DNA of 64,000 nt from the NCBI RefSeq assembly GCF_008806975.1, contig NZ_CP031728.1, forward strand, positions 3,555,501 to 3,619,500, written 5' to 3'. This document shows positions 28,015 through 30,165 of the stretch, piece by piece. The translations under genes were made by a program, and so were the position numbers. The DNA comes from Cellvibrio sp. KY-GH-1 (lineage in GTDB: Bacteria > Pseudomonadota > Gammaproteobacteria > Pseudomonadales > Cellvibrionaceae). Position 1 is the first letter of the stretch. Each line of letters opens with the position of its first letter. The notes beneath the pieces were generated by a model. The model ran no database searches, was not told the DNA's origin, and worked only from the letters and a program-made list of their open reading frames with translations.

Positions 28015-28347
28015 CTAATGCGCAACCGATTTTGAAAACACATTCATAATCAAAACACCAGTCAGGATAAATCCCATTCCCAATAGCGCCGGAAAATCCA
28101 GTTTCTGTTTGAACACCAGAAAACCAATAATGCTAACCCCTACAATTCCCACACCCGACCAAACAGCGTAGGCAACTCCGACCGGAATTGTTTTTAAGGT
28201 AAGCGATAAAAAATAAAACGCTAATCCATAGCCAACCAACACCACTATAGAAGGCGTAGTTTTAGAAAAACCTTCACTCGCTTTCAACGCGGAGGTCGCG
28301 ATCACTTCAGAAAAAATTGCAACTCCTAAAAACAACCAACTCTTCAT
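28015..28347 (-). CDS. Small multidrug resistance (SMR) family transporter
   Basis: A 110-residue proton-coupled efflux protein of the EmrE/Qac group, working as a dimer in the inner membrane. It has four membrane helices, the essential glutamate in [11 protein letters not shown] (around residue 13), [21 protein letters not shown] and the C-terminal [15 protein letters not shown] start at the ATG at 28347, preceded by GAGGTG, which gives the standard SMR length; a GTG at 28356 is less likely. Whether it exports biocides, guanidinium or polyamines cannot be read from sequence. Confidence 0.92.
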
Positions 28348-28442
28348 GGCCAGCACCTCAGTTATTAATCCTTAAAAGATTGTCGCATCTGAAACAGGGA
28401 AGAAACAGTCTTGTGATATTTATAAAATTCTGCACACAAATG

Positions 28443-28471
28443 AAAAAGACCGATCTTTTGATCGGCCTTTT
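28443..28471 (-). terminator. Terminator, apparent copy of the dnaJ terminator
   Basis: AAAAGACCGATC and GATCGGCCTTTT pair around TTTT. Together with the adjoining bases it aligns to the dnaJ terminator at 29006-29038 (both GCCGA/TCGGC-type stems followed by TTAA and the start of a dnaJ 3' end). It now ends the transcript of the 131-residue gene. Confidence 0.8.
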
Positions 28472-28477
28472 AAGTGA

Positions 28478-28577
28478 CTCGTTAGATATTTGCTTCACCC
28501 CAGTGAACCAGCCCGATTGTTTGGAATGAATACGTTCCGCCCTTCATGGTTGCCTGGTGCTTTTCAGCAGATTTTTA
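28478..28577 (-). pseudogene. dnaJ: Decayed copy of the dnaJ 3' end
   Basis: Read leftward from 28577, this stretch aligns with the last codons of the dnaJ gene at 29047. Both have K-x-LLK, then ATGAARGGCGGA, then GGCTGG or AGCTGG, then GTGAAG. With one base removed near 28527 the copy reads SSKQSGWFTGVKQISNE beside dna[18 protein letters not shown]. It starts right at the stop codon of the neighbouring gene and has no start, so it is a remnant. It is followed by a related terminator. Confidence 0.8.
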
Positions 28578-28973
28578 TCAATGCTTAATGACCGCGCTTT
28601 CCCATGGCTTGTACTTTGGGTTATTTAACGCCAAACGATCTGACCATTGCCCACCGTGCTGAAGCTCACAGGCTTGCTCACTATCAAAACGTACACATTG
28701 CTTAATATTTTTTACGACTATGCCCACCTTAAGTAGTTGTTTTTGTATGGTTGCACGCAAGATTTCATCTTGCTTAAGCGCCAACATAGTCTCAATATCT
28801 TCATCGGTATTAAAAACACAAGTGACTACTAAACTTCCGGGAAAGTTGGTGTAATTCACGCGATGGGTCAACCAGGAAAATCCAACGATATCACCTAAAA
28901 AGGATTCGCAAGCAACGGTTAACGACTTGCATATATTGTTATCGAGTTTTTGATTGGTTTTGCTTAGCTTCAT
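28578..28973 (-). CDS. Conserved hypothetical protein between the two dnaJ 3' ends
   Basis: A 131-residue soluble protein. I do not recognise a catalytic motif. WLTHRVNYTNFPGSLVVTCVF and VRFDSEQACELQHGGQWSDRL resemble a conserved gammaproteobacterial family that some databases label Fis family regulator, although no helix-turn-helix is visible; this link is from memory. It lies between the real dnaJ terminator and the decayed dnaJ end, as the only gene in that 540-base stretch. No strong ribosome binding site precedes the ATG. Function unknown. Confidence 0.75.
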   Translation of the reverse strand: MKLSKTNQKLDNNICKSLTVACESFLGDIVGFSWLTHRVNYTNFPGSLVVTCVFNTDEDIETMLALKQDEILRATIQKQLLKVGIVVKNIKQCVRFDSEQACELQHGGQWSDRLALNNPKYKPWESAVIKH

Positions 28974-29005
28974 CGTATTCTTGTATTTAAACTTTTTACC
29001 TTAAT

Positions 29006-29038
29006 AAAAAAAGCCGACCTTATCGGGTCGGCTTTTTT
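29006..29038 (-). terminator. Terminator of dnaJ
   Basis: AAGCCGACC and GGGTCGGCTT pair around a short loop with A and T runs at each side. It lies 8 bases beyond the dnaJ stop codon. Confidence 0.9.
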
Positions 29039-29046
29039 AAGCTCAA

Positions 29047-30165
29047 TTACTCATTAAAAAACTTCTTCACACCGTCAAACCAGCTGGACTGTTTGGGGGA
29101 GTATTTTCCGCCTTTCATGGTGGTCTGGAATTCTTTGAGCAAATCTTTTTGTTTGCTGGTGAGATTTACCGGGGTTTCTACTACCACGCGGCAAAGTAAA
29201 TCGCCGACACCACCACCGCGCACTGGCGTTACGCCTTTACCGCGCAGTTTGAATAATTTTCCAGTTTGGGTTTCGGCCGGGACTTTTAATTTTACGCGGC
29301 CATCGAGCGTGGGAACTTCAAGCTCACCGCCGAGTGCAGCATCGACAAAATCAATCGGAACTTCGCAATACAAGTCAGCGCCGTCACGTTTGAAAATGTG
29401 ATGCTCGCGCACATGCACTTGAACATACAAATCGCCGCTCGGACCACCGTCTGCACCCGCTTCACCTTCGCCGGACAAGCGAATGCGATCGCCGGTATCC
29501 ACACCCGCTGGCACTTTCACTTGCAGGGTTTTGGTTTCTTCTACGCGACCCTGGCCACTACAGGATTTGCAGGGGTCAGAAATAATAGTGCCGCGTCCAC
29601 GACAGCTGGGGCAAGTTTGTTGAACCGAGAAAAAGCCCTGCTGCATACGCACCTGGCCGTGACCACCACAGGTAGTACAGGTGACCGGTTTACTGCCCGC
29701 TTTTGCACCGGAACCATCACAGGTTTTACAGGAAACCAGTGTAGGCACTTTAATTTGAACACTGGTACCTTTTACGGCATCTTCCAAACTTAATTCGAGG
29801 TTGTAGCGTAAATCGGAACCGCGCGCCGGACCACCGCGACCACCGCGCCCGCCACCAAAAATATCACCGAATACATCGCCAAAAATATCACTGAAGTTAC
29901 CACCGCCAAAACCACCAGCGCCGCCCATACCAGATTGGCCATCTACGCCCGCGTGACCATAGCGATCATAGGCCGCGCGCTTGTTTTCGTCGGACAGAAC
30001 TTCGTAAGCCTCGTTAGCTTCTTTGAATTTTTCTTCGGCGTTAGGATCATCCGGGTTGCGATCCGGATGGAATTTCATGGCTACACGACGGTAGGCTTTT
30101 TTCAATTCAGCGGCATCAACATCTTTTTTGACACCGAGGATTTCGTAGTAATCGCGTTTGGACAT
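29047..30165 (-). CDS. dnaJ: Chaperone DnaJ
   Basis: Hsp40 co-chaperone that delivers unfolded proteins to DnaK and stimulates its ATPase. The 372-residue protein has the J-domain with HPDRNPD (residues 33-39), a G/F-rich region (75-115) rich in GGFGGG repeats, and four zinc-binding CxxCxGxG-type repeats ([36 protein letters not shown]). The C-terminal peptide-binding part ends in [12 protein letters not shown]. It is the last gene of grpE-dnaK-dnaJ, with its own terminator. A related 3' end lies about 500 bases downstream. Confidence 0.98.

Follow-up and report, generated by a model that had tools for sequence, protein, structure and literature searches.

A Colwellia-Type Gene Probably Captured at the 3′ End of dnaJ in a Cellvibrio Genome

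Arrangement of the Locus

In the genome of Cellvibrio sp. KY-GH-1 (G000, a single contig of 5.76 Mb), the dnaJ gene is followed by a small gene and then by the remains of a second dnaJ end. Within the window, that is, the whole stretch of 64,000 nt that was analyzed, the order on the minus strand is dnaJ 3′ end, terminator, 131-aa ORF, decayed dnaJ-like stretch, second terminator, and SMR gene. The features are as follows:

29047..30165, minus strand: dnaJ, intact, 372 aa (Pfam DnaJ_C, 2.8e-53; NCBIfam PRK10767, 8e-184)
29047..29148, minus strand: last 102 nt of dnaJ, the working one of the two copies of its 3′ end, aligning with about 28477-28576
29007..29038, minus strand: working dnaJ terminator, a hairpin of 13 pairs with a T run at its end (fold −19.2 kcal/mol, z −5.87)
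28974..29006, minus strand: small-gene leader, which does not align with Colwellia leaders and has no sigma-70-like match
28578..28973, minus strand: small gene, 131 aa, of an unnamed conserved family and foreign, Colwellia type (residues 1-123 match a Colwellia demingiae locus at 76%; tree)
about 28477..28576, minus strand: decayed old dnaJ 3′ end, now without its frame and stop (alignment to the working end)
28444..28471, minus strand: old dnaJ terminator, 12-pair stem kept (fold; collinear with the single dnaJ terminator of two relatives, G014 and G024)
28348..28443, minus strand: SMR upstream region, common to the empty sites in G014 and G024
28015..28347, minus strand: SMR-family transporter gene adjoining the empty site (Pfam Multi_Drug_Res, 2.3e-33; 93% and 92% to G014 and G024)

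The small gene is the only ORF of at least 60 aa between the two dnaJ ends, and no match to a sigma-70-like promoter was found in 28300-29200.

Aligned together with their terminators, the old and working ends reach a local score of 63, whereas 2,000 dinucleotide shuffles average 17 and reach 29 at most, and the coding part alone scores 50 against a shuffle maximum of 28. The alignment contains 102 identities, 28 mismatches, and 15 gap positions. The old copy begins directly after the stop codon of the small ORF, at the equivalent of 29148, which lies 102 nt before the end of the dnaJ stop, and it has lost both its reading frame and its stop. The longest exact run between the two tails, counted by eye in the alignment, is 8 nt, and decay may have erased an att core. 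The hairpins fold at −19.2 (working) and −16.3 (old) kcal/mol, with z about −5.9, and none of 200 shuffles is as good; the old terminator probably now ends the transcript of the small gene. An earlier note, made from the letters of the window, had described this layout and its coordinates, including the decayed second dnaJ 3′ end and its related terminator, and had named chance resemblance, no better than that of shuffled sequence, as the result that would undo it. The description is essentially borne out, and the score far exceeds the shuffles.

Distribution among Relatives and the Empty Site

Within the genus, the small gene is present only in the genome of the window (1 of 21 genomes); the count is 31 of 144 for the family and 81 of 390 for genomes sampled across the order. 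We found dnaJ in 18 of the 21 genus genomes, the misses (G027, G028, and G032) being assemblies of 210-670 contigs, and read the sequence behind it up to 9 kb (about 3 kb in G030 and about 7 kb in G031). None of the other 17 genus genomes in which the dnaJ locus could be read has a second dnaJ end; their best scores of 21-30 compare with shuffle maxima of 23-31 (15 shuffles per genome; four of the 17 exceed their own maximum by 1-4), whereas G000 scores 52 against a maximum of 27 in the same scan. Likewise, no second end was found at 28 parsed loci (of 29) from wider relatives, which score 14-28 against shuffle maxima of 20-29 (20 shuffles each; seven exceed their own maximum by 1-3, taken as noise); two of the loci have less than 400 bp behind dnaJ, and seven further genomes with a match gave no locus. 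The possibility raised by the earlier note, that relatives without the small gene also carry a second dnaJ end, was thus not realized in any of the 17 genus genomes read.

In G014 and G024, a single dnaJ terminator runs straight into the SMR gene with the same upstream region as in the window. Between the old terminator and the end of the SMR gene at its stop, 377 of 451 aligned bases agree with G014 (9 gap positions) and 373 of 452 with G024 (13 gap positions). Judged by this collinearity, the two loci are empty sites, and the outer dnaJ end of the window is therefore the old one by position.

G014 and G024 carry, at the corresponding place, copies of the SMR gene that share 92-93% identity with the one behind the islet, and SMR homologs at 54-71% occur in five other genus genomes on other contigs or at least 200 kb from dnaJ. 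The first gene behind dnaJ differs within the genus, being an SMR transporter, an Rce1-like protease, an HNH_5 nuclease gene, an unknown protein, or a SIR2-like frame, as seen at L087 (G033), L088 (G026), L089 (G025), L081 (G014), and window positions 28015-28347. The SIR2-like frame reads VIGAGASYEANLP, a likeness judged by eye and without Pfam support. No second dnaJ end accompanies the varying first genes at these genus loci.

The Passenger Family

The passenger belongs to an unnamed, well-conserved gammaproteobacterial family of about 110-135 residues. There are 18 invariant columns in 20 family sequences, including W34, T36, H37, P45, S47, and L48, and the window protein is a clear member, its last ten or so residues being without a clear counterpart in the family. 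It has no Pfam, NCBIfam, or PHROG match, and a search of 51 family members against PHROG, Pfam, and NCBIfam gave only scattered weak matches involving one to three members each (best 0.00025). No solved structure was found for the family by sequence at E up to 1, and a conserved GXXG loop of the KH type II kind was not seen by eye in the 20-row family alignment. One plasmid record labels a family member "Fis family transcriptional regulator." Fis is all helical. The label does not fit the window protein, which lacks a Pfam or NCBIfam match and is predicted by its structural model to have three strands.

Origin of the Passenger Gene

Genome contigs searched with the family alignment yielded 156 relatives, and the best 80 were kept. 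Among these best 80 of 156 are 20 Colwellia loci (L103-L121 and L123) at 63-76% identity to the window protein, and the best locus outside Colwellia is from an uncultured Cellvibrionales bacterium (L122), at 60%. Two further loci named Colwellia (L172 and L181) hold other members of the passenger family, at 39%. A passenger tree was built from the window and 136 loci (29 from the family, 27 from the order, and 80 from genome contigs, with some genomes counted twice); seven sequences with stops or short matches were dropped and identical rows merged, which left 110 rows. With a bootstrap that is not fully settled, the window protein falls inside a 21-row clade that is otherwise all Colwellia (100/96), and within nested sets of 11 rows (100/91) and 5 rows (100/87); L181 falls outside this clade. 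These sequence comparisons support the view that the passenger is foreign and of Colwellia type, which is the new result on this locus.

The G+C content of the small gene, 0.407, is also low beside that of dnaJ (0.513) and of 1.26 Mb of genome sequence (0.479), in keeping with capture; two ordinary neighbors are low as well (SMR 0.424 and Rce1-like 0.43), which weakens this point. DNA similarity to Colwellia runs from about the start codon to 28625-28627 in 11 of 21 loci (end range 28584-28803). The match thus ends early, and therefore the last 16 or so codons and the leader are without an identified DNA source, a point against the capture. A 39-nt stretch comprising the leader (28974-29012) shows no homology to 19 Colwellia leaders, with 481 of 500 shuffles scoring at least as high, and the last 55 nt of the ORF show none to dnaJ upstream of its tail, where 389 of 500 shuffles do so. 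Only two of nine dN/dS comparisons of the small gene were computable (one of their four estimates failed); they gave dN of 0.19-0.21 and dS of 1.7-2.2, and we read the failure of the other seven as saturation. Because dN lies far below dS, the small gene has been kept by selection, while the adjoining dnaJ relic lost its frame and stop.

The earlier note had also pointed to the occurrence of the small protein next to dnaJ in other genomes. It lies beside dnaJ in G000 and at none of the 136 other loci, where homologs of dnaJ, SMR, and the Rce1-like gene were all absent (tblastn, E up to 1e-3; flanks of 1.5-6 kb, shorter at contig ends); therefore no donor with the gene behind dnaJ is known.

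The neighbors of the passenger vary between lineages in the 18 loci viewed. At the eight Colwellia loci whose surroundings were viewed, an Hsp70-like gene is divergent from the small gene in all eight and a proA-like gene is convergent and adjoining in six; these calls are by resemblance, Pfam HSP70 and Aldedh matches having been made for L103 only. The small gene thus stands beside an Hsp70-like gene at these Colwellia loci (PF00012, 5.5e-18 in L103) and behind dnaK-dnaJ here, which is probably a coincidence. Two distant lineages have a DUF2237-type gene after the small gene (L122:6451-6828, by Pfam, and L143:6467-6844, by resemblance).

Mobile Elements and a Genome Scan

The genome has 14 matches to the tyrosine integrase family PF00589, 13 of them over the cut-off, and the nearest lies about 185 kb away (serine integrases were outside the search). 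No transposase was found in the insert, whose sole ORF of at least 60 aa, the small gene, is without a Pfam match. The inverted score of the 900-bp flanks is 21, compared with a maximum of 29 in 20 shuffles scored directly, and short terminal inverted repeats could escape this comparison. Among 57 passenger loci, including the one in the window, that were searched for flanking direct repeats, the window pair scores 63 against 29; repeats at L002, L065, and L074 exceed the maximum of 20 shuffles by 2-5 and were set aside as noise. IMG/VR gave no confirmed relative of the passenger, and phage relatives were likewise not found; 12 plasmid records hold relatives at 32-40%, and the DNA of the islet itself has no match among plasmid or phage records.

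A scan of 1.264 Mb (22% of the genome) for repeat pairs of 60 bp or more, 250-4,000 bp apart, found 181 nearby pairs, of which seven touch the stop of an ATG ORF of at least 60 aa. No second islet is among these seven, and only in the dnaJ pair is a gene end repeated beyond a different gene. The other six are paralogous ORFs, their flanks, or repeats within a single ORF, as judged by coordinates and, for one pair, by reading the sequences. One such case, G000:C1:3496812-3498570, consists of two adjoining ORFs (226 and 279 aa) with homologous C-terminal parts, which are paralogs and not an islet.

Which dnaJ End Is New

The body of dnaJ groups with G023, G029, and G016 (91/91, not starred). At four aligned tail sites, with one gap column excluded, these three relatives share a fixed letter from which most of the other subgroup departs; the old end carries that letter at all four and the working end at one. 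At looser sites, where two of the three relatives agree, the old end takes the state of the other subgroup at both usable sites (columns 71 and 191). The old end is 70.1% identical to G029, 69.3% to G016, and 67.9% to the working end, and the working end is genus-like, at 79-83% to the ten nearest relatives. The rows nearest by path are G019, G018, and G021 for the working end and G029, G016, and G019 for the old end. Additionally, the outer pair of the working terminator, A-T, is found in G018-G021 and is missing from the three nearest relatives. Both ends have in common three letters of the terminator, the innermost C-G pair among them, that are absent in 10 of 10 near relatives, in a part where the alignment is uncertain; as far as these letters go, they point to a common local origin of both ends. 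In the tail tree (G022, too diverged, was left out), 10 of 15 inner branches are open, and the AU tests reject none of the six groupings tried (p-AU 0.06-0.40), including the two dnaJ ends as one clade (p-AU 0.18), because the tails are too short and too diverged. Along dnaJ, we saw no clear identity step in 120-nt windows, read by eye, that would mark a recombination break.

Discussion

We propose the capture, at the dnaJ 3′ end, of one ORF of the Colwellia lineage, an event that left two dnaJ ends, and we put its probability as a whole, irrespective of its route, at about three in four. There is good support for a capture in which the dnaJ 3′ end was duplicated or replaced. One lineage of the genus would have taken up the foreign ORF at this place. 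The inner end completes DnaJ, and its hairpin can stop the dnaJ transcript; the outer end is the positional descendant of the original, its coding part decayed and its hairpin kept, and this hairpin probably ends transcription of the small gene. Neither neighbor therefore seems to have lost its end through the insertion, and the newcomer would have gained a ready-made terminator. The islet is probably a one-off gene acquisition, and a single illegitimate event, perhaps aided by dnaJ homology, is the simplest account, needing no dedicated mobile element.

As to the route, the likeliest taken by itself, though it falls somewhat short of an even chance, would be illegitimate repair or recombination with one join behind the dnaJ terminator and the other within the dnaJ tail, by which about 140 bp of host DNA became duplicated. 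A close alternative, possible and somewhat less probable, is that the incoming molecule already carried the dnaJ end of a related species. DNA from another species of the genus, with the small gene behind its own dnaJ, would then have recombined by homology on one side and joined illegitimately within the old tail on the other, so that the working end was imported, and homology-facilitated illegitimate recombination is itself established (PMC3240628). The four-site comparison weakly supports such an import, and the A-T pair of the working terminator, the difference between tail and body neighbors, and the slightly greater closeness of the old end to G029 and G016 than to the working end fit it as well. 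Four sites are few, however, and the looser sites show the old end with the other subgroup's state; the terminator letters common to both ends, the lack of an identity step along dnaJ, and the absence of dnaJ near the 136 relatives of the small gene also weigh against it. We slightly prefer local duplication during capture, since no donor arrangement is known. The earlier note had read the layout as incoming DNA that supplied a new 3′ end and displaced the old one. Incoming DNA and a displaced old end agree with the foreign passenger, its presence in 1 of 21 genomes, and an outer end that is old by position (377/451 in G014), and the four-site comparison lends weak support to a working end that arrived with the gene. 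The working end is itself genus-like, the tail tree favors neither reading (p-AU 0.18 for the two ends as one clade), and the common terminator letters, in an uncertain part of the alignment, point to a local origin.

The same final layout would result if the dnaJ end and terminator had first been duplicated in tandem and the foreign gene inserted between the copies later, and two ends of the same lineage would fit the common terminator letters. This order of events is unlikely, in that it takes two separate steps, with the insertion falling precisely where the copies meet, and the duplication alone is seen in none of 17 relatives. We consider it yet more doubtful that an integrase-carried island once attached at the dnaJ 3′ end and that the islet is what remains of it after the loss of all but one gene. 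Such an island would leave the layout seen here, a new functional 3′ end, cargo, and the displaced old 3′ end, but the distance to the nearest tyrosine integrase match (serine integrases being outside that search), the single ORF between the two ends, the lack of a second-tail island behind dnaJ in the 17 genus genomes, the lack of an exact run longer than 8 nt between the tails (by eye, and decay may have erased a core), and the lack of a plasmid or phage record matching the islet DNA all argue against it. Very improbable, finally, is a minimal element without a recombinase, consisting of an ORF with a copied host 3′ end and terminator, which as a small circle would recombine into the matching gene tail; if real, it would always leave the host gene whole and bring a terminator.

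With its decaying relic and its empty sites, the islet would be a clean trace of a single-gene transfer between distant gammaproteobacteria into the dnaK-dnaJ region. Such cases show a lone gene settling beside an important gene without damage and acquiring a terminator. Furthermore, the islet points to a well-conserved small protein family without a Pfam or NCBIfam model.

Comparison with Known Systems

In relation to the family that carries the Fis label, the window copy has the conserved positions and sits behind dnaJ. Islands that integrate at 3′ ends leave the old 3′ end on the far side with the cargo between, and e14 and phage 21 integrate at icd. The dnaJ islet resembles these islands and prophages in its order of a host gene with a working 3′ end, cargo, and the old 3′ end beyond. 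SGI1, one such island, integrates at the trmE 3′ end (PMC8409611). The dnaJ islet differs from them in its single passenger and in that no integrase was found with it, and among the matches listed in the open literature we found no report of dnaJ as an integration site. Homology-facilitated illegitimate recombination has been described in three species with natural competence, and conjugation gives rise to it at low frequency (PMC3240628). The islet differs from that process in that no donor with the small gene behind dnaJ is known and local duplication fits equally well; the likeness is that the process would explain a small insertion joined by homology on one side and illegitimately on the other, without a mobile element.
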